From: Nitrosopumilus sp.
GTDB lineage: Archaea; Thermoproteota; Nitrososphaeria; Nitrososphaerales; Nitrosopumilaceae
Length of the DNA stretch: 56,259 nt
NCBI RefSeq assembly: GCF_025698945.1
Contig: NZ_JAILWM010000006.1
Location: 1 to 56,259 of the forward strand
Direction of reading: 5' to 3'
The position numbers and the translations under genes are program-made. The notes under the pieces were generated by a model that was not told the origin of the DNA, did no database searches, and was given only the letters and a program-made list of their open reading frames with translations. Positions 33,305 through 53,334 of the stretch are shown in pieces; within the stretch, counting starts at the first letter, position 1, and every line of letters starts with the position of its first letter.

Positions 33305-33954
33305 TCTTCTAATTTTCCTTTCTTATGATGATGGATCAGAATCGCCCATCCACCAATCAATGATATTAACCCAAAAATCATCAAAATAAACAAATCTGAA
33401 TTATTTACATTGGAATTGATTCCATGATTTTGAACATATTGGAATAATCCTACACCGTTTAACCAAGGTAAATCATCTGGAACTGGAAGTTTTCTACTTA
33501 CATAATAAAGCCAATCAAGCCAACCAAAATAATATAATGAAAGTACGCTGTATCCATACATTCCAGTGATTATGAATAGCATTGGATTAATTGATGCACC
33601 AGCCAATATTCCAGAAAACAATCTAAATATCATTACAAAAACTACAAAGAAAATAACAATTATCAATAACATCATCCAATATTGCCCACCCAATCTAAGT
33701 TGTTCATCTTGTTCTGAAAGGAATGTATTTTTTAGAAAATTAGTTAATGGATTATTTACAAGTAATTCTAATCTTCTTTCTTCACAAAAATCAGTAATTA
33801 CTTCAGGTGGACATCCCGCTATAATTGGTCTAACAAAACCATCATGAATTACAATATCTATAACTGTAAATAAAATTAAAAATGAAACTGCGATTCCAAT
33901 TGCAAAAGCAAATTCATATCCAGAAGGTTGTGGATTTGCTAATAAATCTCTCAT
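33289..33954 (-). CDS. Five-helix membrane protein, 221 residues
   Basis: Hydrophobic stretches near residues 14-34, 92-112, 118-142, 150-165 and 188-206. The long outer loop (about 45-85) has two cysteines (GCPPEVITDFC). The basic tail holds HHHKKGKLEEW. Co-transcribed with the PQ-loop protein. No family recognised. Confidence 0.65.
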   Translation of the reverse strand: MRDLLANPQPSGYEFAFAIGIAVSFLILFTVIDIVIHDGFVRPIIAGCPPEVITDFCEERRLELLVNNPLTNFLKNTFLSEQDEQLRLGGQYWMMLLIIVIFFVVFVMIFRLFSGILAGASINPMLFIITGMYGYSVLSLYYFGWLDWLYYVSRKLPVPDDLPWLNGVGLFQYVQNHGINSNVNNSDLFILMIFGLISLIGGWAILIHHHKKGKLEEWGLI

Positions 33955-34700
33955 TGTAATCTTTTTTGGATATGTTTTACAAAATCAATTATATCATCTG
34001 GTAGTGGTTCATAAAGCCATGCTGAACCCCACTGATAACCATTATCAACATAAGCATCATTATCTTTTAGAATCTGAACTTTTCTATCATAAAATTCATC
34101 CAAATGTGCATATTTGGAATCATTGATATGTTCATCAATTATTGATTCTTGTTTCTTTGTTCCAGCATTCAGATCATTCAAATGCCATCTATCCCAAACA
34201 TCCAACAATTTTCTAAATTCTTCATCAGATATTCCATTAACTTTGATATTTCCTTTTTCAAATTGCTCTCTAAGTGTATCTTGTATTTGTCCACCAGTTG
34301 TAATATCAGAATGATTTGAATTCCATATTCCACCAGAAATTCCTAACTCTAATGGATTCTTGTATTCTTTACCATCGATTCCTTTTTGTGGATGGTCTTT
34401 TTCTCTTAACTCAACATTTAGTGTAACTGCTTGACTTCTTCCATTGTAATCAAAATCTTTTACACTTGCAACTACTGGTTCATTTCCAATTTTCTTAACT
34501 TCTTTTTTTGGAAAAACATCTTCAACTGGAAACTCTCTAGAAGATGTTTCTAATTTCTTTGAACCACGTTGCATGAATCCAGTACCAACTTCAACATCCG
34601 TTGATGTGTTTATTGAATCAGAACTAATCTTACTTGGTTTTTCAGTTGGAATGAAATCATGTCCACCTTTATTATTTTCTTTACTGAATCCTTTCACCAT
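33951..34700 (-). CDS. RWHLND-type plasmid/phage protein with N-terminal tag, 249 residues
   Basis: Residues 12-35 carry a GGHDFIP tag and KISSDSINTSTDV, shared with the next gene. The body contains WDRWHLNDLNAGTKKQ and a later YQWGSAWLYEPLPDDII. I recall similar W-x-RWHLND...G-x-x-x-Q...YG-x-x-WL...LP sequences in plasmid and phage proteins of unknown role, but cannot verify this. GGTGA precedes ATG 34700. Soluble; could be an injected or virion-associated protein given the shared tag. Confidence 0.55.
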   Translation of the reverse strand: MVKGFSKENNKGGHDFIPTEKPSKISSDSINTSTDVEVGTGFMQRGSKKLETSSREFPVEDVFPKKEVKKIGNEPVVASVKDFDYNGRSQAVTLNVELREKDHPQKGIDGKEYKNPLELGISGGIWNSNHSDITTGGQIQDTLREQFEKGNIKVNGISDEEFRKLLDVWDRWHLNDLNAGTKKQESIIDEHINDSKYAHLDEFYDRKVQILKDNDAYVDNGYQWGSAWLYEPLPDDIIDFVKHIQKRLQ

Positions 34701-34701
34701 T

Positions 34702-35292
34702 TTAGTTCACCCTATACATTAATTTTCCTTGTGGCAATTCAACTTCTTCATGGTCGTAAGATGCAAGTGAATGAGCAATACCATCATGTTTGATTGATTC
34801 GTTGAATAGTTCTTTTTTGTTTAATGGAACTTGTTTTGCAAGTTGGAAGTTTGGGCTATCCCTATTGTAAATATCATCGTATGTAATACCTAATCTTCTT
34901 TCCAATGTTCCTTCATCAACAAATGATTCAATGAAAGATTTATTCCATCCAAGTATTCCCATTTCATCCCAAACATTATCTAGATATTCAATTGCTTCTT
35001 TATGTGCTTGTGTTCTATTGTTTAGGATCAGCCATTCTTCACCATTTTTGAATTCATATACATTACCATAAACATGTTTAATAATTTCAGAACCAACTTT
35101 TGCTTCTGCATTCTGTTTTGTTTCTAAAGTTAATGAACCAATACTTTTTTCAACTTTTGTTTTCTCTAATTCTTTTTCACCACGTGTTGATGTTGTATCA
35201 ACATCAGTTGAAGTATTAATTGAATCTGAACTGATTTTTTTGGATTCATTATCGTGTGGATGGAAAACACCTTTTTCTTTATGTCCATCCAT
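34702..35292 (-). CDS. N-terminally tagged protein, 196 residues
   Basis: Begins MDGHKEKGVFHPHDNE, then KKISSDSINTSTDV, the same tag and linker as the 249-residue neighbour. The C-terminal part includes an AHSLASYDHEEVELPQGK segment and ends YRVN, a pattern I recall from small plasmid/phage proteins. No membrane segment. Part of the 35747-33951 operon. Confidence 0.6.
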   Translation of the reverse strand: MDGHKEKGVFHPHDNESKKISSDSINTSTDVDTTSTRGEKELEKTKVEKSIGSLTLETKQNAEAKVGSEIIKHVYGNVYEFKNGEEWLILNNRTQAHKEAIEYLDNVWDEMGILGWNKSFIESFVDEGTLERRLGITYDDIYNRDSPNFQLAKQVPLNKKELFNESIKHDGIAHSLASYDHEEVELPQGKLMYRVN

Positions 35293-35294
35293 TT

Positions 35295-35747
35295 CTAAAA
35301 CACTTCCTGTAATGCTTCTTTAATAGTTTGACCTTTAAGAATTTCAAACCTTGCAAATAAAATATGTGAAACCATAGCAAGCCCTAAAAATATTGATGCA
35401 ATTTTATTCAAATCACCACGTTCAATATCAAAATCAATATTGTTTGTAAATAACATTCCAGCAAAAATAGCGTTACCAATTGCAATTGCAATTACCAGAA
35501 TTCCAGCAAAAATTAAGGCATTCTTTTCTCTATCCAATACACCAAATCCTTCAAAGAAAAATACCAATGCGTTAAATCCAAAAATTATTCCTAGCCAAAA
35601 GTTTTCTGGATTTGACCAAACAGATTTGAAATCAAAAAATGAATAAACTGAAATTGCTAGAAAAGCACCTAATGATAAGAAGAATGGTAATAATTTAGTT
35701 CCTAACCCCCTGTAAAATGTGGCGTTAACTTGTCTTGAAAATACCAT
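35295..35747 (-). CDS. Four-helix membrane protein, 150 residues
   Basis: Hydrophobic segments near 20-38, 48-68, 76-100 and 112-132; basic and aromatic N terminus. ATG 35747 is first in the operon down to 32969; TATA-like TATTCTTATAG lies upstream in the end of the next gene. No family recognised. Confidence 0.65.
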   Translation of the reverse strand: MVFSRQVNATFYRGLGTKLLPFFLSLGAFLAISVYSFFDFKSVWSNPENFWLGIIFGFNALVFFFEGFGVLDREKNALIFAGILVIAIAIGNAIFAGMLFTNNIDFDIERGDLNKIASIFLGLAMVSHILFARFEILKGQTIKEALQEVF

Positions 35748-35793
35748 TTCTAATCAATCTCATAAAAAACAACTATAAGAATATTTATGTCAA

Positions 35794-36288
35794 CTAAAAT
35801 TGTGGGTTTATTCCACCAATCATGAACAATATTATTACTACACCAAATATTCCAGCAAACATAACCATGTGTGGTATTGACCTTCTGAATATCATGTAAA
35901 CAGCAAAAGCACCAACACCCCAAGAAATCAGTAAAACAAACAATGGATCAATCTCATATTTTTCAGGTACTAGAACATAGATGAATGATTCAACTAAATG
36001 ATGAAATGTGAATAGAAAATTCTTTCCAGCCTTTCCAGTTGCAATAGAATCATCTAGTAAATCCTGTAACTCGGCTTCAGTTGTATTCAATGGTGTTTCA
36101 TTTCCAGTTACATTCGCATTACTGATTAATCCTTCAAACCATCTTCCAAGTTCATCGAATCCATCATCAATTGCACCAGAAGCATCAGGTACACCTTCAA
36201 CTTCTTCAGCAAAAGCAAATGGAACTAACATCAGAAATGCCAATAATCCTAATGGGATTAATGATAGATGTCCTGTAATATCCTTCAT
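35794..36288 (-). CDS. Membrane protein with signal peptide, 164 residues
   Basis: Signal peptide in residues 1-27 (cut likely after AFA), acidic outer part with N-glycosylation-type NVTGNETPLNTT, then helices near 113-133 and 140-158. Promoter element at 36332, 44 nt from ATG 36288. Probably an envelope component. Confidence 0.65.
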   Translation of the reverse strand: MKDITGHLSLIPLGLLAFLMLVPFAFAEEVEGVPDASGAIDDGFDELGRWFEGLISNANVTGNETPLNTTEAELQDLLDDSIATGKAGKNFLFTFHHLVESFIYVLVPEKYEIDPLFVLLISWGVGAFAVYMIFRRSIPHMVMFAGIFGVVIILFMIGGINPQF

Positions 36289-36309
36289 AATTTTTGAATC
36301 AGTTCTTAT

Positions 36310-36332
36310 TATTTAGTTTTTTATGTAAAAAA
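36310..36332 (-). promoter_or_regulatory. Promoter of the 164-residue membrane protein
   Basis: TTTTTTACATAAAAAACTAA on the minus strand, 44 nt before ATG 36288, with AT-rich TATA region ACTAAATAA. Confidence 0.55.
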
Positions 36333-36342
36333 GAAAAGTGTT

Positions 36343-36414
36343 CTAGCCTGTTTCGTCTAAACTATTGGCTAGTTTTTCAACCAGTGATGGATCAGAAAAA
36401 CCAATCCACCACTG
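36343..36414 (-). terminator. Two tandem hairpins after the 36473 gene
   Basis: CAGTGATGGAT (36382-36392) pairs with ATCCACCACTG (36404-36414) at 10 of 11 positions plus one G-U. CTAGCC (36343-36348) pairs with GGCTAG (36367-36372). On the minus strand a T-rich run CTTTTCTTTTTT follows. Looks like a terminator at the end of the operon that starts at 40663. Confidence 0.5.
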
Positions 36415-36472
36415 ATTATTATTCAATGTGAACTCCCCATTTACACATCAGTTTTGTAACCAACTTGAACTA

Positions 36473-36967
36473 TTAATCTGTTTTTGTAAACAAATTAAAA
36501 ATACTGAAATCATCTTGGAATTGTCCATTGTATGATTCTTCATATCCACTAATTTTCAGATTAAGAATCAAAAACCTTTTTGCAAGTAATCTTTTCTTAA
36601 TCAATGGATTTTTTGTAATCTTTGAACGAACCACTTTTGTATATCCCAAGAATATTTCATTTAGTCCTTCGGCTGGAACTCTCATTGTTAGTTCATTCAA
36701 GATTTCATCTCTTTTTTCACTAAGTTCTTCAGTGAATAAAGCCAAACTTGAATTCTCTAATTTTTGAGATAGACGTTTCATAAAATCATAGTATGGTCGA
36801 TGGCAATACACACTACAGAAATCTTTATCCTTTCTTTCGAGTTTGTGTAGTGTTACTTGCAATACTTTTCCACACCATTGGCATGTCCAACATCTAGAAA
36901 TTGATTTTCGTTTTGGTTTCCCGCCACGATTTTTTCTAGTGTTTAGATATGCTGATTGTTGCGACAT
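36473..36967 (-). CDS. Treble-clef-like zinc protein, 164 residues
   Basis: SRCWTCQWCGKVL and later DFCSVYCHRPYYDFMKR form a two-pair zinc site of treble-clef style. The N terminus is basic (NTRKNRGGKPKRKS). The rest is helical. The ATG at 36967 overlaps the upstream stop (TAATG). Likely nucleic-acid binding. Last gene of the 40663 operon. Confidence 0.6.
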   Translation of the reverse strand: MSQQSAYLNTRKNRGGKPKRKSISRCWTCQWCGKVLQVTLHKLERKDKDFCSVYCHRPYYDFMKRLSQKLENSSLALFTEELSEKRDEILNELTMRVPAEGLNEIFLGYTKVVRSKITKNPLIKKRLLAKRFLILNLKISGYEESYNGQFQDDFSIFNLFTKTD

Positions 36968-37134
36968 TAATCTTGGTATGTTGCTTTGATTCGTCTTAAT
37001 TCATCTAACTTTCTTCTCAATGCTGGAAGTTGTTTTTCCATCATTTCAATTTCACCAGTTAGATCATAGATGTCTTTTTCTAACAACCAATGTTGTGGAT
37101 GTATTATTCGTTTGAATATTTTTACTAATTTCAT
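36967..37134 (-). CDS. 55-residue coiled-coil peptide
   Basis: ATG 37134 with GGTGATT 3 nt upstream, to TAA 36967. LTGEIEMMEKQLPALRRKLD is a clear heptad-like helix. TAATG overlap with the zinc protein suggests the two work together. Confidence 0.6.
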   Translation of the reverse strand: MKLVKIFKRIIHPQHWLLEKDIYDLTGEIEMMEKQLPALRRKLDELRRIKATYQD

Positions 37135-37416
37135 TTAATCACCACCTGTAAAATCATTCTTTGTGAACAGTCCAACAACTTCTTCTTTCACTTTTACTAT
37201 AGATGCAGATTTCATCCAACTTATTGATTCCTTGATTGTTGCTACAGCATCTTTGTAAGTGAACCATGTATCCATTGTGATGGTTACTATTCCTTCTTTT
37301 CCTAACATGTCATATCTTACCTTGTACTGTTTTTTTTCCATTTCTGTTTTTTGGGTTATCTGCTCGTTCAGCCCAAGGTTGTCTTTTGTAGAGTTTTCGT
37401 TTTGCATTTCTTTCAT
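37135..37416 (-). CDS. 93-residue protein, no recognised family
   Basis: N-terminal 30 residues are polar. KVRYDMLGKEGIVTITMDTW then looks like a beta hairpin, followed by a helix and a strand. Ends right at the start of the 55-residue gene. Function unknown. Confidence 0.55.
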   Translation of the reverse strand: MKEMQNENSTKDNLGLNEQITQKTEMEKKQYKVRYDMLGKEGIVTITMDTWFTYKDAVATIKESISWMKSASIVKVKEEVVGLFTKNDFTGGD

Positions 37417-37439
37417 CCTTATTGAGAATATAGTGTAAC

Positions 37440-37631
37440 CTATTTCTTTTTTTCTGGATTAGTTTTTGAATCTCTATTTCTTCTTGCTTCATTGAAAACC
37501 TTTTCCTTGTGAACATTTAATGCACATCCAGTACAAACATCACCAGTCAACAAAGAATTTGGTGATGATTTCTCGAATGATTTCAATTCAGTTCCACATT
37601 GAGAACAGAAGTTATTTTCTTCATTTGACAT
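37440..37631 (-). CDS. 63-residue zinc-ribbon protein
   Basis: CSQCGTE and CTGCALN form a zinc ribbon, followed by a basic tail ARRNRDSKTNPEKKK. Overlaps the upstream gene by 11 nt. Probably nucleic-acid or protein binding. Confidence 0.6.
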   Translation of the reverse strand: MSNEENNFCSQCGTELKSFEKSSPNSLLTGDVCTGCALNVHKEKVFNEARRNRDSKTNPEKKK

Positions 37632-37896
37632 ACTCGATTTTCCTTTGTGCTAAGATTACTGCTTTTGCCCATTGTATTTCGCCAATCTGCATTAACTCTA
37701 GAATGGTATGTTCTGTATCCAAAGTTAGTCCAACTGTAAATGCTTTTGCGTTTCTTGAATGTTCATTTATTCCATTTGCCCTTCTGATTGCAAACAAATT
37801 ATTTTCTGGTGTTGCTGGTTCAAAATAATCTAGTCCAGCATCATCATAAACACCACTATACCAATAGTAAGTTGGTTCTTGTTCACTCATTTTCAA
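37621..37896 (-). CDS. 91-residue alpha/beta protein
   Basis: Tyr-rich N terminus (EPTYYWYSGVYDDAGLDYF), then AFTVGLTLDTEHTILELMQ. No cysteine. Overlaps the TPR-like gene by 14 nt. No family recognised. Confidence 0.55.
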   Translation of the reverse strand: MKMSEQEPTYYWYSGVYDDAGLDYFEPATPENNLFAIRRANGINEHSRNAKAFTVGLTLDTEHTILELMQIGEIQWAKAVILAQRKIEYVK

Positions 37897-38236
37897 TCTT
37901 CCTAATATTTCTGAAATCCCATTTCATAAAACATTTCCAATTCTCGAAATGAAATGATTTCCTTAGTGGTGAATAATCGTTGTATGATTTACCAAATGCT
38001 TTCTTATACATTACTAAGAATTCATCAAATATTTTCATGGCTTCTGGTTTTGGAATATCTTCAGTCCACCATTCATTGTCATGTGTTAATGCGAGTTGTT
38101 GTCTAAAAATCATAAACTTCATCTTGTGCATTAGCATATTTGATTTTTCATTTAGTTCAATTGCATCATCCATTGATTTTAATGCTTTATCGAACTTTCC
38201 AGCATCTGCTAATTCTTGTGCTTTTGTTACAGTCAT
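37883..38236 (-). CDS. 117-residue TPR-like protein
   Basis: AQELADAGKFDKALKSMDDA fits one tetratricopeptide repeat (A-G-x-x-x-x-A-L pattern), and IFDEFLVMYKKAFGKSYN may be a second, degenerate one. Likely a protein-binding helical scaffold. Starts at the ATGA overlap with the 47-residue zinc peptide. Confidence 0.5.
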   Translation of the reverse strand: MTVTKAQELADAGKFDKALKSMDDAIELNEKSNMLMHKMKFMIFRQQLALTHDNEWWTEDIPKPEAMKIFDEFLVMYKKAFGKSYNDYSPLRKSFHFENWKCFMKWDFRNIRKIENE

Positions 38237-38376
38237 TCTTTCAAATCAACATTCATGTGGTCTTTAAGAAGTTCTTCAGCACTTGGATATGATTTATTGC
38301 ATGTGATACATGTGATGTAATCAATTCTTTCATCCTTTCCTTTCTTCTTGAAAATAATGTGTGTTTCTCGTTCCAT
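38233..38376 (-). CDS. 47-residue zinc-finger peptide
   Basis: ATG 38376 to TGA 38233. CITCNKSYPSAEELLKDHM is a C-x2-C-x12-H finger core with Asn/Asp in place of the last His. Located 2 nt after the 383-residue gene. Confidence 0.55.
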   Translation of the reverse strand: MERETHIIFKKKGKDERIDYITCITCNKSYPSAEELLKDHMNVDLKE

Positions 38377-38378
38377 GT

Positions 38379-39530
38379 CTATCTGAAATCCACAAAATCT
38401 TCTACGAGTTTTCCATCATAGAATATTCTTCCATATCCTTTGTTAGATGGTAGTTTCAATTCTATTTCATTTGGAAATGATGAAGGTTTCTCAACTGAAA
38501 AATCTTCGTGCATGTTACTATACATCCATCTTTGAAGTATTGTGTTTACATAACACTCAATTACATTATCTGGATAATGACCAGTTGAACTATGCCCAAG
38601 ACTTAATGCTTCCATGAATTGCTTGTGTGCATATCTAATGTTTTCATCAAGTTTCTGGTATCTTTTCAACACCTTATCTTTTTCCAAATTTAGATTCTGT
38701 GTAAACTTCATGGCTTGTTCACCACGACTTCTAGCATCTAAGAAATGAATCATCATGGCTTTTTCTACACTGAATGTTTTCTTTTTGTAATTGTTTTTTG
38801 GATCAGGTACTGTAAACAAAACATGTGTTTCTGCACGAACCTTTTTTGGTGTAAATTCTTGAACTAATGGTTCTTTGATTACACTGTATTGTTTCATGAA
38901 TCTTTCTTCAACTTCTTCTACTTCCAATCCAAATGATTCATCGCTTTGTAGATAACATTCCAAAACTTTTAGGAATGATGCAATTGCAACACTGTATCTA
39001 TAATCGTATGAACCTTCTTTTGGCATGTATTCAGGTGATGGATAACGATGTGCATTTGTTGTCCAGAATGATTTCTTGATAACTGAAACATAATGTTCTT
39101 GTTCCATTGTATCATCACTATTCTTATGGTACATGTGATGAAGTTCTTGGTATTGCTCGATGTAGTTTGCTACTAAATCTTTGTTAACAATAAATCCACC
39201 AACTTCATAGTAGTTTTCATTCAACCAAAGTTTTCTTTTCAAGATTTCCAATTTCCATTTTGCATCTTCTTCAAAAACTTGTTTTACACATTCTTTTCCA
39301 ATACATTGTTCACATTTAGGATCATCACAGATTCCCCATCCTGTAAGTATTGAATTACCATCAAGAATTGATTGCACTTGTTCATCTGAAATTCCAGTAA
39401 GTGATTCTTTCAATAATTTGAATCCACCTTCCTTATCATCTTCCATCCAATATCTGGTTCTTGACATTTCCATTAGCCAAGCACCTTCAATTTCAAAATG
39501 GAATGATTTGATGTATGTTTGATTATTCAT
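38379..39530 (-). CDS. 383-residue protein, no recognised family
   Basis: CDDPKCEQCIGKEC near residue 70 may hold zinc. Much of the rest is helical, and KKTFSVEKAMMIHFLDARSRGEQ and ENIRYAHKQFMEALSLGH are the most conserved-looking segments. No membrane segment. The largest protein of the 40663 operon, so it may be the functional core of that gene set. Its ATG overlaps the 54-residue gene by TAATG. No homologue recognised. Confidence 0.6.
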   Translation of the reverse strand: MNNQTYIKSFHFEIEGAWLMEMSRTRYWMEDDKEGGFKLLKESLTGISDEQVQSILDGNSILTGWGICDDPKCEQCIGKECVKQVFEEDAKWKLEILKRKLWLNENYYEVGGFIVNKDLVANYIEQYQELHHMYHKNSDDTMEQEHYVSVIKKSFWTTNAHRYPSPEYMPKEGSYDYRYSVAIASFLKVLECYLQSDESFGLEVEEVEERFMKQYSVIKEPLVQEFTPKKVRAETHVLFTVPDPKNNYKKKTFSVEKAMMIHFLDARSRGEQAMKFTQNLNLEKDKVLKRYQKLDENIRYAHKQFMEALSLGHSSTGHYPDNVIECYVNTILQRWMYSNMHEDFSVEKPSSFPNEIELKLPSNKGYGRIFYDGKLVEDFVDFR

Positions 39531-39694
39531 TATAATGCACTACTCATTACATCCAAACTTATCTTTAAAAGTTCTTTTCCTATGTCTTGTAATGACTGGT
39601 TGATTGGTGTCAAATCCATTCTTTCTAATGGAACTGATAATGCTGGTGATACAAAAAATACACCAAAGAATGTTCCCATTAAAATCTTAATCAT
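39530..39694 (-). CDS. 54-residue secreted or membrane peptide
   Basis: ATG 39694 to TAA 39530. KILMGTFFGVFFVSPALSVP is a short signal peptide or membrane helix, then a polar helix. TAATG overlap with the 383-residue gene. Confidence 0.5.
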   Translation of the reverse strand: MIKILMGTFFGVFFVSPALSVPLERMDLTPINQSLQDIGKELLKISLDVMSSAL

Positions 39695-39794
39695 CTTCGT
39701 TCACCAAAAATCCTAAACCTAGAATTTCTGTATATGGTTCTTCATTCATTTCTACTGAAGAATTCTGCGTGTGTTGTGTTTTCATATCTTTCAT
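39687..39794 (-). CDS. 35-residue peptide
   Basis: ATG 39794 to TAA 39687. Polar, acidic end (LGFLVNEDD). The ATG shares the TAATG overlap with the 143-residue gene, which is why this start is preferred. Function unknown. Confidence 0.4.
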   Translation of the reverse strand: MKDMKTQHTQNSSVEMNEEPYTEILGLGFLVNEDD

Positions 39795-40225
39795 TAATTC
39801 GTTTTTGGAATTGCTTCTTTTGTTTTTGGTTCAACTTCTTCAATATCCCAACAATCAAGATTCTGATTTGTTTCTGGATTCATTTTTGTTAGCCATTCTC
39901 TTTGTGCATCTTCCTTAGTTACACCTTCAACAATAACACTTTCTTCATATCCATCATACAATTCAAATGATATTTTGAATTTCTTCAAACCATTTAGTTG
40001 TTTGATTGATTCTCTAGTGTTATAGATGAATCCATGAAGTAATTTTTCCCTATCCTCAATGATGTTTCTTTGTATGAATAATTCGTTGAAATGATTTGTA
40101 AGAAATTCAATCTTTTCAAGATTATTTTTACATGTTCCACAAATGGATTTATCTATACCATCGTGTAATGTGTCGAACTTATCGCCACATCTTGCACATG
40201 TAAATGGTGTTTTATTTTCTGACAT
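39794..40225 (-). CDS. 143-residue protein with N-terminal zinc ribbon
   Basis: CARCGDKF and CGTCKNNL, about 20 residues apart, form a zinc ribbon. A coiled helix (LFIQRNIIEDREKLLHGF) and a strand region with Glu-rich end follow. Operon member; probable adaptor. Confidence 0.65.
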   Translation of the reverse strand: MSENKTPFTCARCGDKFDTLHDGIDKSICGTCKNNLEKIEFLTNHFNELFIQRNIIEDREKLLHGFIYNTRESIKQLNGLKKFKISFELYDGYEESVIVEGVTKEDAQREWLTKMNPETNQNLDCWDIEEVEPKTKEAIPKTN

Positions 40226-40289
40226 TTCTAATAATTTTGAAACTTGTGTATCCTAGTACAAATAGAATTGCTATAACTTCTGTTTGCAT
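40212..40289 (-). CDS. Possible 25-residue membrane peptide
   Basis: ATG 40289 to TAA 40212: EVIAILFVLGYTSFKIIRNV is one short hydrophobic helix with a basic end. It overlaps genes on both sides, which fits the operon style, but the length makes it tentative. Confidence 0.35.
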   Translation of the reverse strand: MQTEVIAILFVLGYTSFKIIRNVRK

Positions 40290-40369
40290 TCGGGCATCCC
40301 ACCAAATTCAACTAAACCGTTTGAATATCTTGGTGTGGTTCTGTTCCAGTTCTTTTGTAAGTTTTTCAT
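40271..40369 (-). CDS. Possible 32-residue peptide
   Basis: ATG 40369 to TAG 40271: basic and aromatic (NWNRTTPRYSNG) with one cysteine. Sits in the only gap between the 92-residue gene and the next peptide. Tentative. Confidence 0.35.
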   Translation of the reverse strand: MKNLQKNWNRTTPRYSNGLVEFGGMPECKQKL

Positions 40370-40384
40370 AAATCTCAACAACCC

Positions 40385-40663
40385 CTAGTTCATTATCACC
40401 TTCAGTTGTTGAGAGTTGTTTTTAGAATCTCGGTTGTTATCAAGTTTTACTGATTGTCTAGAATCAGCATATCCAGCATACTTCAATAATTTGAATGCTG
40501 AATCACCAATTTTTTTTAGATGAACCTTTGAATCAGATTCAATCAAATGTTTGGCTTCATTTTGTTTTGCTTCAAAAAATGCTTGTTTTTTCACTTCCTT
40601 CAATAACACATTCCATTTGGAAGTATCATTTCCAGAAAATACCAATTTTTGTTTTGATTTCAT
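40385..40663 (-). CDS. 92-residue basic helical protein, first gene of the 40663 operon
   Basis: Lys-rich and helical (KKQAFFEAKQNEAKHLIES), ending in a polar Asn/Ser/Asp tail. ATG 40663 lies under a promoter block that is nearly identical to that of the 502-residue gene at 46143. A DNA-binding or inhibitor role is possible. No family recognised. Confidence 0.65.
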   Translation of the reverse strand: MKSKQKLVFSGNDTSKWNVLLKEVKKQAFFEAKQNEAKHLIESDSKVHLKKIGDSAFKLLKYAGYADSRQSVKLDNNRDSKNNSQQLKVIMN

Positions 40664-40761
40664 GGTATTTTCTATTTTTCTACTTTTCTATTTAAGCATT
40701 TGTTTGTCCAAAAATAACAACAAATCACAATATTTTCTAGCCTAGAGTGGAAATGAAGGGG
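40664..40761 (-). promoter_or_regulatory. Promoter and operator of the 40663 operon (copy A)
   Basis: Minus strand, reading towards ATG 40663: a CACTCTAGG box, then TTGTTGTTATTTTTGGACAA, then TTAAATAGAAAAGTAGAAAA before the start. The last part and the first box are shared with 46144-46230. The middle 24-bp element is present there in the opposite orientation. TATA is TTTAAATA-like. Confidence 0.65.
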
Positions 40762-40815
40762 TACAAGTTACCATGAAATCAACTGGCAATAGCAAGTATC
40801 ATTCCTTGTACCCCT
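40757..40815. repeat. 11-bp inverted repeat in the 40664-40857 spacer
   Basis: AGGGGTACAAG (40757-40767) and CTTGTACCCCT (40805-40815) are perfect reverse complements, 37 nt apart. A promoter-like AATTTACAATAATCC lies beyond it on the minus strand (40840-40860), so a short leftward transcript could fold here. Confidence 0.55.
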
Positions 40816-40857
40816 AGGTAATTTGAGTAGATTTGATGATAAAAGGATTATTGTAAA

Positions 40858-41241
40858 TTAAATTTTTAGATGGATTGTTGCACCAAATAAAATAACAGTT
40901 TTTGATTCCATATTAATCGGTACAAGAATTTGATTACCTTTTAGATCAGAAGTATGAAAAACACCTTTTCTTGCATTTTCAATCATCCATGATTTCCTAA
41001 TAGCACCAAATGGTTTTAGATTACATCCTTTAACTGGACAACCACCAGAAAGTTTCTTTTGATGCAATACACAAATCATATAATCATCAGAACCACTTTT
41101 ACTTCTTCCAGTGTTACCAGTGTATTGTTTATGTTCCATAGCATCACTATTCAAACCAACCTCATGTTGTTTCATGTGTTGTGGATAAACATCAACTGGA
41201 TAGTAGTCTTGACAATTTCTACAATATTTCATAAATCCCAT
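40858..41241 (-). CDS. 127-residue zinc protein
   Basis: YCRNCQDYYPVDVYPQHMKQH is a C2H2-like finger (CxxC, x11, H, x3, H), and CPVKGCN gives a second pair. NARKGVFHTSDLKG near residue 92 echoes the GxFxPH tag elsewhere. ATG 41241 shares a base with the upstream stop. Last gene of the operon whose first gene is at 46143. Confidence 0.6.
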   Translation of the reverse strand: MGFMKYCRNCQDYYPVDVYPQHMKQHEVGLNSDAMEHKQYTGNTGRSKSGSDDYMICVLHQKKLSGGCPVKGCNLKPFGAIRKSWMIENARKGVFHTSDLKGNQILVPINMESKTVILFGATIHLKI

Positions 41242-46143: not shown

Positions 46144-46230
46144 GGTAATTCTATTTTTCTACTTTTCTATTTAAAGATATTGTTGTTATTTTTGGACAAA
46201 CAAAATCGTTCCTAGAGTGGAAATAAAGGG
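46144..46230 (-). promoter_or_regulatory. Promoter and operator of the 46143 operon (copy B)
   Basis: Minus strand: CACTCTAGG box, TTTTGTTTGTCCAAAAATAA then CAACAA, then TTTAAATAGAAAAGTAGAAA to ATG 46143. Compared with copy A at 40664-40761 the outer parts match directly, but the middle element is inverted. Confidence 0.65.
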
Positions 46231-46232
46231 GT

Positions 46233-46988
46233 TTAATCACAAGTTGCGAAACCAGCACGACAAACATCTTCTGAAAAGTGATGGTTAACATTTCTATTAT
46301 TTACTGAATAATCTTCATTCCAGAAATCCATTGTGTAATGGTCATTTGTGATACCTTCCAGTTTTACAGAAAATTGCCATGTGATTGGAAATTCAGAACC
46401 AATAGGTAATGTTGTTGAACCTTGGAATGGTTCATTCAATCCAATTCCATCAAAATCAAATGCCCTATCACCATCTGTTTTAGAATCCAAAAAGAATTTG
46501 AATCTGATTACTTCACCAGCGGTTTCTTCATTTCCTAATGCAAATGAAAGTGGTGTTAAATCATTTGATGTTTGTTGTGTCCATGAAAATGATGCCAATG
46601 GATCAGTGAATTCACAGAACCATGTATAGTCAACTGGATCAAGTCTAGGTTGTCCAGTCAATATTTCCCAATTGGAAATTCCTTGGTCATTATCAATGTA
46701 AACAAATCTTTCATCTGTGAAAAATGAATCATCAGCACTAAAGAATTCAAAATCTCTATCGTGCATTATTCCACGAAACGTTAATCTCAAATCACAAACA
46801 TCATCACTGTTTGATGCTATGTTTGCATCTTCTTCATCACGTACATCAACCAAATCTTTTTGTTTGTTCAATCTTTCTTCAGCAATATTTTGTAATCCAA
46901 GTAATTCTTCACTGAAGAATGAAATAAAAATTACAGAACCAAATAACAAGAATACAATTACAATTGCACCAACTAATATTGAAGCCAT
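46233..46988 (-). CDS. N-terminally anchored exoprotein, 251 residues
   Basis: Hydrophobic helix near 4-24, a short coiled segment (IAEERLNKQKDLVDVRDEED), then a beta-rich domain with CDLRLTF, WFCEF and a CRAGFATCD end. It overlaps the coiled tagged protein by one base. Likely a surface or envelope component. No family recognised. Confidence 0.6.
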   Translation of the reverse strand: MASILVGAIVIVFLLFGSVIFISFFSEELLGLQNIAEERLNKQKDLVDVRDEEDANIASNSDDVCDLRLTFRGIMHDRDFEFFSADDSFFTDERFVYIDNDQGISNWEILTGQPRLDPVDYTWFCEFTDPLASFSWTQQTSNDLTPLSFALGNEETAGEVIRFKFFLDSKTDGDRAFDFDGIGLNEPFQGSTTLPIGSEFPITWQFSVKLEGITNDHYTMDFWNEDYSVNNRNVNHHFSEDVCRAGFATCD

Positions 46989-47812
46989 TATGAAACAATC
47001 CCCGCACTTAGTAGAACTTGTTTTTCACCTTGACCATGAACTTTAGATAATGCTCTTTTCTTCTTCATGTCAATTTCTGATTTTGTTTCTTTTACCTTCT
47101 TTAACATAATTGTTTTTTGTGGTGTTGGTATGTTTGATGATTCAATCTTTCTTTTTTGTTCATCGGCTTCTTGTTGTTTTTTGTTCAATGCTTCAAATTG
47201 CATTCTTAATTTCTCATTATTTTTTTCGGCTTCCTTGTTTTCTTTGTCTAATATTTTCTGTGTTTCATTTGCACGTTCTTTCTGTTCATCAAATTTATCT
47301 AACTCTTTTTCACCTTGTCTATTTTCATTTGCTGAACCACTTGGGAATAATACATCTGTTCCATCTTTTCTTCTTTCTTCTTTTGATTCTTGTTCTTGTT
47401 TATCAATTGCCTTTTGTGATTCCTGCAAATTATCAATAAACGTATCAAGTTTCTTTTTATCAGAATCAGATAACATATCACCTTGTTTACTTTTGAATTC
47501 CTTTAATTTTGCAATTTTAAATCTTGGTGATAGATTCAATGAAAACACCTTATTCAGATTATCACCAGCAATTCTTTGTTCAGTTACTTTTCTCATTTCC
47601 TGTGATGGTTCTGATTTTGGTAGGTTCTTTATTTTTTTCCTTTCTTGGAATTTTTCTTTATGTTTGTTAATTGAACTTCTAATATCCAGATTTACTTTAG
47701 ATGAAGGTCTAACATCCACCCCTGAATCTCGTTCAGTTATTTGTGAACTGAAGATACCTGAACCTTGACTATGAGGATGAAAAACACCGTTTTCAGTATG
47801 TCCAATAGTCAT
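46988..47812 (-). CDS. Long coiled-coil protein with N-terminal GHxxxGxFxPH tag
   Basis: ATG 47812 gives MTIGHTENGVFHPHSQ; a TTG two codons earlier also exists. After residue 50 the protein is almost wholly charged helix (EKNNEKLRMQFEALNKKQQE), ending in basic SKVHGQGEKQ. The tag matches proteins at 34702 and 53071 and in part 33951. The rod-like form suggests a scaffold or tape-like role; unproven. Confidence 0.6.
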   Translation of the reverse strand: MTIGHTENGVFHPHSQGSGIFSSQITERDSGVDVRPSSKVNLDIRSSINKHKEKFQERKKIKNLPKSEPSQEMRKVTEQRIAGDNLNKVFSLNLSPRFKIAKLKEFKSKQGDMLSDSDKKKLDTFIDNLQESQKAIDKQEQESKEERRKDGTDVLFPSGSANENRQGEKELDKFDEQKERANETQKILDKENKEAEKNNEKLRMQFEALNKKQQEADEQKRKIESSNIPTPQKTIMLKKVKETKSEIDMKKKRALSKVHGQGEKQVLLSAGIVS

Positions 47813-47862
47813 ATACAATTCTCATCAAATTGCACTAAATAAAGTTGTTCTAGTCAATTTTT

Positions 47863-48642
47863 TTAGATTTTTGGTTGTTCTGGTAGTGATGGTTTTTGTT
47901 GCTGGAATTCATCATCCTTTCTCAAAGTTTGTTGCATTCCTACCATCATAATATCACGTGATAGGTTCTTCTCATTTGCTAGATTTAGCCACAGTCCATA
48001 ATGAAATACTGAAGATAGTGGTACAGAAATATAATAATTGAAAAAATCCAAATACAAATCTCTATACATTTTTTGTCCACCAGCATCAAGAATCAGCCTT
48101 GACCATGTAGAATGACCTTTAGTTTGAAATTCATTAATCTGAATCCACTTATCTTCAATTGATTCTAGGAACTTTGTTTTCTTTATTGATAGCCTGTATG
48201 GTGAATTAGGATCATGATTTTTTTTCTTAAATGGATTTGTAATGCCAAGAAATCCACCTTTTGGTTCTTGTGGTGGGCTTCCTTTTGGTACATTGATTAA
48301 ACTATCAAGTTGCTCGTATGGATACAATTCTTTTCTAATATCATGAACCACTTGTGGGATTACTGCTATTGCCTTGTTTATCTTCTGTGCATACTCATTG
48401 AATAATGGTTGTGCTTCATCCCAAAATGGATAGATTATTTCTATCTGTGTATCTTCGTATAATTCATGTTCAACTTTTTTTGTTTTGTTATTGTTTAGAA
48501 GGTTTTGAAGATTTGAAATTCCTTTTGTTAGATCATCTTCTTCTTCATCATAAAATCTGTGATAATATGTTGTAATTTCTAAAAGTTCTTCAGTATTAAT
48601 ATCACTTACTGGTTTTAGTTTTGGTTGTTGTTGTGAACTCAT
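47863..48642 (-). CDS. 259-residue soluble helical protein
   Basis: Gln/Pro-rich ends (SSQQQPKLKP, LPEQPKI). Helices rich in Tyr/Asp (TTYYHRFYDEEEDDL), a Gly/Lys loop near 130-145, and LYLDFFNYYISVPLSSVFHY as an aromatic segment that may meet the membrane. Overlaps the 71-residue gene by ATGA. No family recognised. Confidence 0.6.
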   Translation of the reverse strand: MSSQQQPKLKPVSDINTEELLEITTYYHRFYDEEEDDLTKGISNLQNLLNNNKTKKVEHELYEDTQIEIIYPFWDEAQPLFNEYAQKINKAIAVIPQVVHDIRKELYPYEQLDSLINVPKGSPPQEPKGGFLGITNPFKKKNHDPNSPYRLSIKKTKFLESIEDKWIQINEFQTKGHSTWSRLILDAGGQKMYRDLYLDFFNYYISVPLSSVFHYGLWLNLANEKNLSRDIMMVGMQQTLRKDDEFQQQKPSLPEQPKI

Positions 48643-48854
48643 TTCTTATCCCCTTTTGGTAAGTTGATATAGAATCTGAATGTACCTTCTTTTTTATGAT
48701 GTGTGCTAATGTCGAATGATTCAAATTTCAAATATTCCTTTAACAACTCAATTTCAACATCGTTAATATTATCAAGTTCATAGAATCCACGATTTTTTGA
48801 TACTGAATAAAACTTTCCTATTTTTCCAAGTAATTCAACTATTGTTATACTCAA
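48639..48854 (-). CDS. 71-residue alpha/beta protein
   Basis: IVELLGKIGKFYSVSKNRGF and FRFYINLPKGDKK suggest a small domain ending in a strand. ATGA overlaps with both neighbours in the 51721-46988 gene run. Function unknown. Confidence 0.6.
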   Translation of the reverse strand: MSITIVELLGKIGKFYSVSKNRGFYELDNINDVEIELLKEYLKFESFDISTHHKKEGTFRFYINLPKGDKK

Positions 48855-50011
48855 TTAATATCAATATCCTGTGCTTCTAATTCTTCCTTCTTTCTTTTCT
48901 CATTTGCGTGTGTCAATACCCCAATAACTATTGTGGCAACAATTACACCAAACCAAGGTGAATATTCCACAAGTTCAGGTACTGATAACCATGCAGAATA
49001 TGAAATACCACCAATGAAAACAGAAACCATACTTAGCATAATATTAGAACTCATTTTAATTGGATCACGTTTTACTTCATTACCTGTTAACCTCTTTTGC
49101 TCTAATGCACCAAACAATTTGTTAATAGCCATATTGAATTTAGAAAGTTTTTTTGACTTTACTGATAATTCACTGTTGAATTTCTTTAATGTAACTTCTT
49201 TGTTCTTGTTGTCTTGTTCTAACTGTGATACTTTAGGTGTCCACTCTATAATGTTTCCAAGTTTCTGTGATAGTTCTGGTTCTAGTGCATCAATTGACAT
49301 TGGAATTGTAACGTGTTTATCTTTGAAAATATCTGAAAATTGTGCATATCTCTTTTTTGGATTTGTTGGTAATACTGCTAATGAATGAACTTGTTTCATT
49401 TTTCCATTATATGTCTTGTAACTTCCAATTGTTGATATTGAATGAACAAAAACTTTAGCCATTATTTCAGGTTCTAACATATTTGACCAACTCTTTAACC
49501 CACGTTGAGAATTTGAAAAGTAATCTGGATTCTCTAATGAAACTCTAGTGTGAATCTGTATGTTTCTATTTTTTGAACGCCATCTTACACCGTTGCCATA
49601 TTTGATAATTTTTGCATTGTAAACATGAAAATTATCTTCAGTTTGTAATCTCTCAACTAATCTTGTAGTACCTTCTTTAACATATCCAGAATCTTCTAAT
49701 TGTTTTAACTCATGTTTTACAAATGATTCATTCTCACTAACATTAACATCATATTCAGTTCCATCTAAATTTGCAATTCTAATTCTTTTTATTTTTCTTC
49801 CTTCTGGAAACTTGGTTCGGCTAGTCCAACCTTTCATCAATATAACAAATCCAGCAATCATAGCACCAGCAATAACCAAACTAATAATCGTGATTACACT
49901 TTCACCAAGTGAACTAACAATATCACCAGATACTGAAGTTCTAGTTCCTTCTAAGAATTCCTTGGATGTTTGTAATGCAATTGTTTGTAGAAATAATAGA
50001 ACAGAATTCAT
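48851..50011 (-). CDS. Three-helix membrane protein with large soluble domain, 386 residues
   Basis: A helix near residues 37-60 (ITIISLVIAGAMIAGFVILM), a 240-residue basic soluble part (RTKFPEGRKIKRIRIANLDG onward, with a helix-rich end near 270), then two helices near 327-345 and 352-368 and a charged tail. Such a layout fits an inner-membrane assembly component. Overlaps the 478-residue gene. No family recognised. Confidence 0.6.
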   Translation of the reverse strand: MNSVLLFLQTIALQTSKEFLEGTRTSVSGDIVSSLGESVITIISLVIAGAMIAGFVILMKGWTSRTKFPEGRKIKRIRIANLDGTEYDVNVSENESFVKHELKQLEDSGYVKEGTTRLVERLQTEDNFHVYNAKIIKYGNGVRWRSKNRNIQIHTRVSLENPDYFSNSQRGLKSWSNMLEPEIMAKVFVHSISTIGSYKTYNGKMKQVHSLAVLPTNPKKRYAQFSDIFKDKHVTIPMSIDALEPELSQKLGNIIEWTPKVSQLEQDNKNKEVTLKKFNSELSVKSKKLSKFNMAINKLFGALEQKRLTGNEVKRDPIKMSSNIMLSMVSVFIGGISYSAWLSVPELVEYSPWFGVIVATIVIGVLTHANEKRKKEELEAQDIDIN

Positions 50012-51444
50012 TTCTTTATTCCCATCCTTTTCTTTATTACTTCAGTAACTGCATTGATTTCATTCAGTAATTTTTCAGTTGGTGATTTTTGATATTGTTC
50101 CCTTAGTTTTTCGTCTTTAATTGCAAGTTTTTCACTAGGATATTTCTTGGCATCTGAATATCTCTCAAAGTAAAATTCAAATGTTGTTGCATCCTTCTTT
50201 TTGTCTTTTTTATCACTGTTTTTCTTAAAGTCAAATATCTTAGCCAATCCAGATTTCTCTTTTGGTTTTTCATCCAATATCTCTTTGATTTCTTCTTTTG
50301 GTTTCAATGCTGGTGTTTTTAATTCAACATCAATATTTGGTTCATGTTCCAAAATCTTTTGAAGAACATTTCTCAAATCAATTATTAGATTACCTATTGT
50401 TGTGCTTCCAAATGAAATTGCTTGCATGTAAGAACTACGCATAATATCATTCTGTGAATAATCATGTCTAGAAAGAATCTTCAAGTTTGCAATAATTTCA
50501 TTCACATGGTTTACAGCATCATTGAATCTTCCTTCGGCTTCTTCAGATTTTTTACTTACATCACGAACAAACCAAATCAAAACTGCTATCAGCATTATGA
50601 TTACAACTACAGCACCGATTATTGTTACGATTAGGATTAATGTTAGATCATTGTTATCTAAAAATAACTGTGCTACAACTTCAAAAGCATTATTAATTCT
50701 AATATCATTTTCTTCTAAAAATTCTTCAAGTGTTGGAACATGAACTTTCTGTTCCGTTTCAACTGTAAAATAATGACAATAAGTAAAATCATTGAATGGA
50801 ATTGCTTGTTGTTCTATTCTTTTGTTATCACTGAATACTTCATAGGTGATGAATCTGTTATCGTTTGGTTTTGATTCAAATTCCCAAAACGCTGATATTG
50901 TAAATACATCAGTTGAGTTTTTTGTGTCAACTGTAAAGAAATCAACATCTCTAATAGCCTTCATTTCTGATTTTTCTGGTGAATTTGCAGATACTAACAA
51001 ATCAACATCTAATGTTTGTGGATATTTTACAGTCATTGTAAATGGTAGTGTTACATCATTCAAATGAGTTTGACCACATACAGATTGGTTTTCATTTGTG
51101 ATTGTTTGTGGGTTTGCAAGTTGTAAATCTTCCAAGTTTGCGTTTCTTACTACATTAGTAGTTGCTGGTTTTTTTTCTAAAGTTTCTTTTGCTTTTTCTT
51201 CTTCTTGTTTCAACTGTTTTTCTGTAACTCTAGTTGTTTTATCATCACTTGTGACTTTTCCATTTGATACTTCAGTTGAATTAGAATTTGTTGCAATTGC
51301 TGAACTATGATTACATGGTACAACATTCAAATCTTCATTATAACAAATCACTTCGTTTCCATGCGGATCAGTTAATGCAAATGAATTAGGAATCAATGAT
51401 GAAAACAATAATACAGAAAAAAGTATTCCAAATAATTTATTCAT
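50008..51444 (-). CDS. Secreted-ectodomain, single-pass protein with cytoplasmic domain, 478 residues
   Basis: Signal peptide in 1-23 (cut likely after SFA), Ser/Thr/Asn-rich and Lys/Glu-rich linker, a beta-rich outside domain (about 125-240), a membrane helix near 268-292 and a cytoplasmic helical domain ending in SPTEKLLNEINAVTEVIKKR. The transmembrane layout could couple outside contact to the cytoplasmic side. It overlaps the 94-residue gene by 8 nt. No family recognised. Confidence 0.6.
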   Translation of the reverse strand: MNKLFGILFSVLLFSSLIPNSFALTDPHGNEVICYNEDLNVVPCNHSSAIATNSNSTEVSNGKVTSDDKTTRVTEKQLKQEEEKAKETLEKKPATTNVVRNANLEDLQLANPQTITNENQSVCGQTHLNDVTLPFTMTVKYPQTLDVDLLVSANSPEKSEMKAIRDVDFFTVDTKNSTDVFTISAFWEFESKPNDNRFITYEVFSDNKRIEQQAIPFNDFTYCHYFTVETEQKVHVPTLEEFLEENDIRINNAFEVVAQLFLDNNDLTLILIVTIIGAVVVIIMLIAVLIWFVRDVSKKSEEAEGRFNDAVNHVNEIIANLKILSRHDYSQNDIMRSSYMQAISFGSTTIGNLIIDLRNVLQKILEHEPNIDVELKTPALKPKEEIKEILDEKPKEKSGLAKIFDFKKNSDKKDKKKDATTFEFYFERYSDAKKYPSEKLAIKDEKLREQYQKSPTEKLLNEINAVTEVIKKRMGIKK

Positions 51445-51721
51445 TTTCTAAAATATCCTTTCTAATTTTTTTGGCATTCAATGGTAAAATATTATTCCTT
51501 TGTAACTTTTGGATGTCCTTTAACATCTTTTTCTGATATTCTTTCAAAGTGTTTGGATGTCTTTTTGCTTCATCAAAATCTTTTCTCATTTTGATTGTTG
51601 CCAATAAAAGAAAGATGCCATCATTAAATGTTGGAAAGATAAATTCACCATCATCATCAACTGCAAACATTGTTTTTTGCATAATTTTAGGAATTTCATC
51701 AGGTACTTTGATGTTTGCCAT
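51437..51721 (-). CDS. 94-residue helical protein, first gene of the 51721 operon
   Basis: Short strand (DDDGEFIFPTFNDGIFLLLA), then basic helices (YQKKMLKDIQKLQRN). No membrane segment or cysteine. Promoter element 45 nt before ATG 51721. Function unknown. Confidence 0.6.
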   Translation of the reverse strand: MANIKVPDEIPKIMQKTMFAVDDDGEFIFPTFNDGIFLLLATIKMRKDFDEAKRHPNTLKEYQKKMLKDIQKLQRNNILPLNAKKIRKDILENE

Positions 51722-51743
51722 ACGTCTATTTTTCTATTTATCT

Positions 51744-51766
51744 ACCTTATAATGATTGTTGTAAAA
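51744..51766 (-). promoter_or_regulatory. Promoter of the 51721 operon
   Basis: TTTTACAACAATCATTATAA on the minus strand, 45 nt before ATG 51721; TATA box CATTATAA. Confidence 0.6.
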
Positions 51767-51769
51767 TGA

Positions 51770-52243
51770 TTATTCTTCTGAATCTGGTGAAGAAATTGTT
51801 AAGTTTCCAATTGTTGGTAAATCAGGTTCTTCAATTGGTAATGAAGGTCTAAACTGTAACATCTGTTCAAAGATTGGAACATTTGTTTGTGTTAAAATTG
51901 TTTCAATATATCTAATCTCTTTATCATTGAAAACTGGTTCTATTCCAAATTCTTGATACTGATAAATTTTCTTTGAAACATCTATCTTCATCAAGCATTC
52001 ACTTCTTTGATTCATACTATCAGTTATTCCAACATCTAAAGCATTTCTAATTTCAAAATCTTGGATACAGTTGTATTGTTGATTTCCAAGTTGGTTTTGG
52101 AAGAACATTTCTTTCATATTTTGGAAATTTGTATTAACATTCTCAAATTTTTGATTTGCATCCATTACTAATCCAATTGAAATTAATGAAACCAAAACTG
52201 AAATTGTTACTGTTCCTACAACAAAATATGTTAACTTACTCAT
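51770..52243 (-). CDS. N-terminally anchored exoprotein, 157 residues
   Basis: Hydrophobic helix near 6-26, then a helical outside domain with two cysteines (YNCIQDF, SECLMKI) and an acidic, Pro/Ser tail. Overlaps the upstream gene by ATGA. Last gene of the 52924 operon. Confidence 0.6.
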   Translation of the reverse strand: MSKLTYFVVGTVTISVLVSLISIGLVMDANQKFENVNTNFQNMKEMFFQNQLGNQQYNCIQDFEIRNALDVGITDSMNQRSECLMKIDVSKKIYQYQEFGIEPVFNDKEIRYIETILTQTNVPIFEQMLQFRPSLPIEEPDLPTIGNLTISSPDSEE

Positions 52244-52446
52244 TTTAACTTAGCCTTCTCTTTTTTTGCCAATTTATATCCCTTTACTAACATTAAAACT
52301 GAAATTCCAAATCCAATTGGAAATAAAATTAGAAGAAACAAATCTTTTGGTGGTTTTACAAATACTAATACAACAAATAATGATGTATAGAATAATCCAA
52401 ATCCAAACATTACTCTAGCCCAAAACAATTCTGAAGGTTTTTTCAT
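52240..52446 (-). CDS. 68-residue two-helix membrane protein
   Basis: Helices near 11-29 and 36-54, basic tail KLAKKEKAKLK. ATGA overlaps upstream and downstream. No family recognised. Confidence 0.6.
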   Translation of the reverse strand: MKKPSELFWARVMFGFGLFYTSLFVVLVFVKPPKDLFLLILFPIGFGISVLMLVKGYKLAKKEKAKLK

Positions 52447-52709
52447 TGTTTATTCCACCAAGATTTTTTATTTAATTTGATTCCTTTACAGCAAAAACCA
52501 CAAGTACATTTACATTCATTTTGATGTTTGATTCTTCTTTCTTTGTTTTCTTCACGTGAAGCGAAAATTGCAATTGGTACTAATGATATGTAACATAAAA
52601 TAAAGATAGTGAAATTAACTGGTGTTTCTATAAAATCTATGAAGAATATTCCAACTGAACCAAACATTACTATAAAAAATAAAATGAAATAAAGGTCACT
52701 TGTTTTCAT
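52443..52709 (-). CDS. 88-residue two-helix membrane protein with cysteine motif
   Basis: Helices near 6-25 and 32-50, then CKCTCGFCCKG on the cytoplasmic side, five cysteines that may bind zinc. ATGA overlaps on both sides. Confidence 0.6.
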   Translation of the reverse strand: MKTSDLYFILFFIVMFGSVGIFFIDFIETPVNFTIFILCYISLVPIAIFASREENKERRIKHQNECKCTCGFCCKGIKLNKKSWWNKQ

Positions 52710-52924
52710 TGTGGTTTACCCCATTTTCTTTCTATTTTTTTATCAAATACCAATACAACAAAAATTGGGATCATCAGAACTAACATCACATAAACTAATC
52801 CCATAATCACAACATCCATTACAAATATGAAATAGAATATAATTCCAGCAACTACAAGAAATGACGTTAAGAATATCGCTGTTAACTTATCTGCAAATGG
52901 TGTTTTCATTTCTTGTTTCTTCAA
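52706..52924 (-). CDS. 72-residue two-helix membrane protein, first gene of its operon
   Basis: Helices near 14-32 and 36-56. TTG 52924 is used because the promoter element begins 45 nt upstream; ATG 52909 five codons on is the alternative. The three small two-helix proteins in a row (52240-52924) may be paralogues or subunits of one membrane complex. Confidence 0.6.
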   Translation of the reverse strand: MKKQEMKTPFADKLTAIFLTSFLVVAGIIFYFIFVMDVVIMGLVYVMLVLMIPIFVVLVFDKKIERKWGKPQ

Positions 52925-52942
52925 CGATTAACTGTGAAAAAA

Positions 52943-52969
52943 CTATACGTTATAATGTTTTATGTAAAA
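52943..52969 (-). promoter_or_regulatory. Promoter of the 52924 operon
   Basis: TTTTACATAAAACATTATAA on the minus strand, 45 nt before TTG 52924. It lies within the end of the 38-residue gene. Confidence 0.6.
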
Positions 52970-53066
52970 TTTTTGAAGAAAATAATTTTGCGAACCCACA
53001 AAACAAACACGTTTTTTGTTTCGGGTACTTCTTGATAAATTCCTTTTTACAATCATTACAGATCAT
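52950..53066 (-). CDS. 38-residue zinc-ribbon microprotein
   Basis: ATG 53066 to TAA 52950: CNDCKKEF and CLFCGF form one ribbon with a basic linker KKYPKQK. Follows the tagged 87-residue gene by a few bases. Its end overlaps the next promoter. Confidence 0.5.
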   Translation of the reverse strand: MICNDCKKEFIKKYPKQKTCLFCGFAKLFSSKILHKTL

Positions 53067-53070
53067 GAGT

Positions 53071-53334
53071 TTACCCTATGATATGTGTAATTGTGTTTCC
53101 AGATAATGGTGAAGTTCCTTGTAAAGCGGTTCTTCCATTCTTCATTGTAATTTTATGAATTCCTTTTGTTACAGTAACTTTCTTTCGTTTCATTACATCA
53201 TATCCCTTGAAAGATTTTGGTAATCCTTTCATTTCATCACCACCAGTTGTTGATTGGTTGATTGATTTTGAAGAAGTTGATTTCTTAGAATCATTATGTG
53301 GTATGAATTTTTTTCCTTCTCTATGTCCGTTCAA
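53071..53334 (-). CDS. 87-residue protein with GHxxGxxFxPH tag
   Basis: Begins MNGHREGKKFIPHNDSKKS, then KSINQSTT, matching the tag and linker of proteins at 33951 and 34702. The remaining 50 residues are basic and beta-like (KKVTVTKGIHKITMKNGR). Overlaps the 122-residue gene by ATGA. Confidence 0.6.
   Translation of the reverse strand: MNGHREGKKFIPHNDSKKSTSSKSINQSTTGGDEMKGLPKSFKGYDVMKRKKVTVTKGIHKITMKNGRTALQGTSPLSGNTITHIIG

Follow-up and report, generated by a model that had tools for sequence, protein, structure and literature searches.

A shared N-terminal peptide on diverse proteins of a circular archaeal element as a candidate docking or packaging signal

Why should otherwise unrelated proteins of one small archaeal element begin with the same short peptide? 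The question arises from a 56,259-bp contig of Nitrosopumilus sp. (NZ_JAILWM010000006.1), the whole of which is referred to here as the window, and in which four predicted proteins, designated P1 to P4, carry related N-terminal sequences (the tag) that an earlier note had taken for a common sorting or packaging signal. Because the first and last 127 bases of the contig (1-127 and 56133-56259) match exactly as a direct terminal repeat, the window is a complete circular element of 56,132 bp, and nearly all its genes lie on the minus strand.

The minus-strand genes in question encode P1 (249 amino acids, aa; 33951-34700), P2 (196 aa; 34702-35292), P3 (274 aa; 46988-47812) and P4 (87 aa; 53071-53334), the last with a TTG start that overlaps the stop codon of the preceding gene. 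The N-termini of all four were located, and those of P2 (MDGHKEKGVFHPH), P3 (MTIGHTENGVFHPH) and P4 (MNGHREGKKFIPH) are alike, as the earlier note had reported. The GHxxxGxFxPH motif that it proposed for them occurs literally in P2 (35254-35286) and P3 (47771-47803), which provide the only two matches in the entire 1.75-Mb genome, both N-terminal; the reversed pattern returned no match in the same genome. In P4 the motif reads GHREGKKFIPH, with K replacing G, and P1 (MVKGFSKENNKGGHDFIPT) lacks it; the start of P1 (MVKGF...FIPT) nevertheless represents the same tag, in a KGF...FxP[T/I] class that is also found in the sister elements described below. P1 and P2 have the same linker after the tag, KISSDSINTSTDV (in P2, tag box 1 and linker together span 35200-35292, minus strand), and the resemblance previously extended to a third protein is looser, both in P4 (SSKSINQST) and in P3 (SSQITERDSGVDV).

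Ungapped pairwise scoring of the N-termini of 89 open reading frames (ORFs) placed the three highest scores (69, 68 and 63) within P1-P4, with the next pair at 45, and the best pair in each of 15 shuffled sets of N-termini scored 37-52. A profile derived from 43 tags lying outside the window likewise returned P2 (15.9 bits), P3 (11.7 bits) and P4 (9.5 bits) as the top window ORFs, with 40 shuffled sets reaching at most 8.9 bits. This profile did not detect P1 among the window ORFs, and P1 is joined to the tag family because it starts with MVKGF and has the same linker as P2.

The 43 additional tags stem from a pattern scan of a genome collection, which identified two proteins beginning with MKGHMEKGKFHPHT on a single contig, JANBVJ010000002.1, belonging to an Arctic ridge metagenome bin named Patescibacteria (AMOR_Bin_143). 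Three contigs of this bin, designated C2 (135 kb), C3 (65 kb) and C5 (28 kb), encode 22, 14 and 7 tagged proteins, respectively, one of those on C3 presenting a partial tag only. Most of the corresponding genes form runs of consecutive, co-directional genes, many of them with overlaps of 4-8 nt. The GC content of C2, C3 and C5 is 33-35%, and their codon usage correlates with that of the window at 0.97-0.98. A stretch of another contig of the bin, C1, is a piece of bacterial chromosome, in which RNA polymerase, RecA and SSB genes were recognised by eye; it has 42% GC, and its codon-usage correlation is 0.72 to the window and 0.77-0.78 to the element contigs. These values are suggestive only of C2, C3 and C5 having been co-binned with a bacterium rather than being part of it, as AT content alone lifts such correlations. 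AMOR_Bin_143 is probably a bacterial chromosome mixed, through a binning error, with several AT-rich element contigs. Relatives shared with the sister contigs include the P-loop ATPase of the window (E 2e-17 and 7e-14), the multi-transmembrane protein beside P1 (E 1e-14), a CPBP-type protease, a DedA-like protein and the product of 19661-20434, and protein similarity thus groups the window element with the sister contigs.

The 47 tags align as one family over approximately 40 residues, with the consensus [KR]-G-[F/H]-x-(D)-x-x-[G/N]-K-F-[H/R]-P-[I/T/H], a Ser/Arg-rich linker and then G-V-x-[L/I/M], beyond which conservation falls to background level. At about 73-355 aa, the tagged proteins are small and have a single body each, and these bodies fall into 38 clusters, most of which matched no family of known function. 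In the window, the bodies differ as the earlier note maintained, with their assignment now corrected: the RWHLND body belongs to P1, in which it starts around residue 80, the coiled coil to P3 and the small basic body to P4. The RWHLND family is found in phages as a standalone, untagged protein, and the body of P4 corresponds to DUF5679, a domain present in 58 of 60 genomes of the genus in proteins of about 55 aa that are typically untagged. The body of P2 is related to that of a tagged protein of C3 (C3_27519); searched against phages it returned a best match with E of only about 8, and its single-sequence AlphaFold model, with a mean pLDDT (predicted local distance difference test) of 43, is not interpretable. 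Family-model scans, which took in a large part, not all, of the window and sister-contig ORFs, identified no known folded domain that holds the motif and is common to all four window proteins, and known-domain scans returned no family model covering the tag across its members.

Several observations indicate that the tag is a separable unit. Two tagged bodies of C2 recur without it in C3 (46% and 59% identity), and the untagged relatives of the P1 and P4 bodies begin where tag and linker finish. Furthermore, an identical tag peptide, KGFKDSNNKFHPI, is found on nine proteins and is encoded by nine different DNA sequences. Since bodies occur untagged and one peptide has nine codings, the comparison argues that the tag is a modular peptide under selection. 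The coding of the P1/P2 linker is in line with this, with 7 of 13 codons differing synonymously and none non-synonymously, and the 11-residue tag of P2 and P3 shows three synonymous and two non-synonymous codon changes. The same data bear on the possibility that the tag is a relic of gene starts, a functionless start region that 5'-end recombination spreads as cassettes are shuffled. Such shuffling is expected to yield long gene arrays in which the start is constant and the body varies, and one tag class, GHMEK, is nearly identical in DNA from gene to gene. The nine codings of one peptide, the exclusively synonymous changes in the P1/P2 linker and the retention of tag residues between elements with little other similarity all speak against this account, which we regard as highly improbable.

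The tagged genes of the window are confined to operons rich in membrane proteins, and one of these operons contains a module whose order is kept in the window, C2 and C3: proteins of about 94, 480, 400 and 260 aa, a tagged coiled coil and a transmembrane protein with a VCDLR motif. In the window, where all these genes lie on the minus strand, the module comprises a 94-aa protein (51437-51721) whose counterpart was assigned from position only, a 478-aa protein with a signal peptide-like start and a transmembrane segment (50008-51444; counterparts C2_68117 and C3_19600, assigned from position together with weak similarity), a 386-aa transmembrane protein (48851-50011; relatives C2_66895 and C3_21131), a 259-aa protein (47863-48642; relatives C3_22678 and C2_66094), P3, which occupies the position of the tagged coiled coils C2_65203 and C3_23510, and the VCDLR protein, with an N-terminal transmembrane segment (46233-46988). 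The 259-aa and 386-aa proteins were matched by sequence at E values of about 1e-5, and the others by position and weaker scores. The second operon contains the multi-transmembrane protein directly after P1 (33289-33954, minus strand), whose relative C2_4836 also lies beside a tagged gene (C2_3945), and two membrane proteins upstream of P2 (35295-35747 and 35794-36288, minus strand), the latter weakly related to C2_6091.

Wherever the module was found, in the window, C2 and C3, the tag is present as well, and among 280 genomes of the class the 386-aa module protein was identified only in the window element. The earlier note had suggested that the tag might be recognised by the ATPase, a 598-aa P-loop protein (1-1790, minus strand) whose C-terminus runs across the circle junction. 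Read in this way, the tag would be a substrate signal addressed directly to that enzyme, as in coupling-protein or secretion ATPases. The ATPase is indeed encoded in the window, C2 and C3, and although its family is uncertain it presents a weak HerA-like match in the PDB (E 0.054). Relatives with 20-29% identity are, however, encoded in five other genomes of the host's family (G042, G061, G164, G239 and G303; two of them single-contig), and in the stretches fetched around these chromosomal islands (4-100 kb each) neither the tag nor a module protein was detected. Given that the window, C2 and C3 have both tag and module and the five ATPase-only islands neither, the tag appears linked to the module and not to the ATPase, which alone does not predict it; the elements compared are few. 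Recognition of the tag by the ATPase is hence not supported, and we consider it quite improbable.

The tag is thus modular, N-terminal, conserved as a peptide and present on 47 proteins with 38 different bodies, and for these reasons a common sorting or packaging signal, as originally proposed, is its best reading; loading into a particle or channel is the part of that proposal that stays an inference. Stated more fully, the roughly 40-residue N-terminus would serve for docking or packaging, bringing cargo into a membrane-associated particle or transfer apparatus, an interpretation that we favour with modest confidence. Separate, mostly accessory proteins would carry the tag so that one receptor could gather them into a common structure, most plausibly a membrane-associated particle or transfer apparatus built from the conserved module (46233-51721 together with 32969-36288), in which the tagged coiled coil P3 or its membrane neighbours would provide the scaffold or the receptor. 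From there the cargo would enter the next host together with the DNA, in the manner of the T4 internal proteins loaded by their capsid targeting sequence (CTS). Within this scheme, recruitment by a common receptor is what we infer, and packaging and delivery with the DNA to a new host are speculative.

Modularity, selection and the link to membrane operons would fit equally well with docking inside the cell only, the tag recruiting accessory proteins to an element-encoded complex, such as a membrane-tethered replication or assembly site, that involves neither packaging nor transfer. Transport is favoured over such docking by the cargo family of C2_50177 and C3_15972, whose body recurs as a domain in four phage proteins (847, 2772, 3209 and 4012 aa); virion genes (connector, lysozyme and tail genes) lie around three of the four, and the 2772-aa protein is annotated as a large polyvalent protein. 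Purely intracellular docking is, in our assessment, a rather unlikely explanation, and the packaging or transfer signal is the one that we prefer.

Several points weigh against this preferred explanation. Only one of the 38 body clusters is tied to a phage virion-region protein, all the sister elements come from one metagenome-assembled genome, and the tags of C2 and C5 are strongly basic, those of the window near neutral. In addition, scans with Pfam, PHROGs and NCBIfam, covering a large part of the ORFs and liable to miss distant relatives, recognised no capsid, portal, prohead protease or known secretion system.

Searches for the tag in other genomes delimited its distribution further. A strict pattern search of 400 Nitrososphaeria genomes returned no tag in genomes other than that of the window, and two profiles applied to the same genomes identified it, beyond noise, only in the window element. 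The borderline hits that were inspected proved to be non-N-terminal or antisense noise, apart from one small membrane protein (L084/L085, E 0.07-0.08) whose N-terminus resembles the tag, a likeness put down to chance. Pattern scans of IMG/VR yielded no convincing tagged gene, and tblastn searches of the tag peptides against phage and plasmid records returned no match. To our knowledge, an N-terminal cargo tag of this kind has not been described in archaea, and none emerged from the present searches.

Known systems nevertheless offer points of comparison. In T-even phages, one conserved N-terminal CTS is found on a highly diverse set of internal proteins and is enough for foreign proteins to be packaged into the head (PMC3012670, PMC9024508). 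A shared N-terminal sequence on otherwise diverse proteins is likewise seen here, in archaeal-type elements, each element or contig encoding between 4 and 22 tagged proteins. The two signals have no apparent sequence relation, none having been tested, and the scans described above recognised no capsid, scaffold core or prohead protease. In phage P1, the first 30 residues of DarB direct a reporter into the capsid, and the cargo is active at an early stage in the new host (PMC9024508); the Dar proteins lack a common N-terminal consensus, whereas the tagged proteins here all share one. As no capsid or prohead protease was recognised, membership in either the CTS or the DarB system is not claimed. 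The polyvalent proteins of phages and conjugative elements combine diverse domains that are predicted to accompany the DNA into the host (PMC5512222), and a domain of that repertoire is present here in one body family only, that of C2_50177 and C3_15972; moreover, polyvalent proteins fuse many domains, whereas each single body here has its own tag. RIX and WHIX domains mark polymorphic cargo for one export machine, the bacterial type VI secretion system (PMC10435454, PMC12135965), but no such apparatus was recognised on these elements. In the same host group, the relevant passages of PMC6563490 describe integrative-conjugative and cryptic elements of the Thaumarchaeota in which most genes are of unknown function, the former with a VirB4/VirD4 ATPase pair, VirB6, TadC and pilins; those passages make no mention of an N-terminal tag. 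VirB4/VirD4, VirB6, TadC, pilin and capsid genes were not recognised among the window ORFs scanned, which include one ATPase of uncertain family.

A separate feature of the window proteins is their lack of cysteine, with none in the 808 residues of P1-P4. All soluble proteins of at least 80 residues in the operons at 32969-36288 and 46233-53699 are cysteine-free, unlike most elsewhere on the element, and the sister tagged proteins do contain cysteine (49 in 9,435 residues). Cysteine loss was rejected as a property of the tag, since untagged operon neighbours share the absence and sister tagged proteins do not, and since an untagged phage RWHLND subfamily (L105) is also devoid of zinc ligands; it is regarded as characterising the operons. 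In P4, the DUF5679 domain lacks all four zinc-binding cysteines kept in the chromosomal copies.

The remaining gene content of the window includes an Rce1-like CPBP membrane protease (14395-15156), a DedA-like membrane protein (18703-19407), a GP88-family protein (29572-30552) and a Dam-type DNA methyltransferase (55132-55749). A perfect 25-nt inverted repeat is formed by 40699-40723 and 46180-46204, and a sequence resembling TTCTATTTTTCTACTTTTCTATTTAA recurs at 18647, 40670, 46149 and, inverted, at 26549; it may act as a common promoter or operator. The sister contigs encode giant membrane-anchored proteins of 5,089 aa (92684-107953 of C2) and at least 4,281 aa (from 7157 of another AMOR_Bin_143 contig, C6), and a short stretch of them resembles a 1,243-aa window protein (4457-8188).

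Taken further, the findings may be viewed tentatively, at somewhat short of an even chance, as a split polyvalent-effector system, in which a membrane-anchored module would load up to two dozen separate tagged proteins per archaeal extrachromosomal element into a virus-like particle or transfer machine of a new type, for delivery to the next archaeal cell together with the DNA. It would be a counterpart of the internal and polyvalent proteins of phages, with many tagged single proteins in place of one fused polypeptide. The tag provides a sequence handle for finding the cargo proteins of an undescribed element family, and the membrane module a testable candidate for their receptor. The tag could also act as a delivery signal in archaea, a group with few such tools, provided that it is sufficient for loading.

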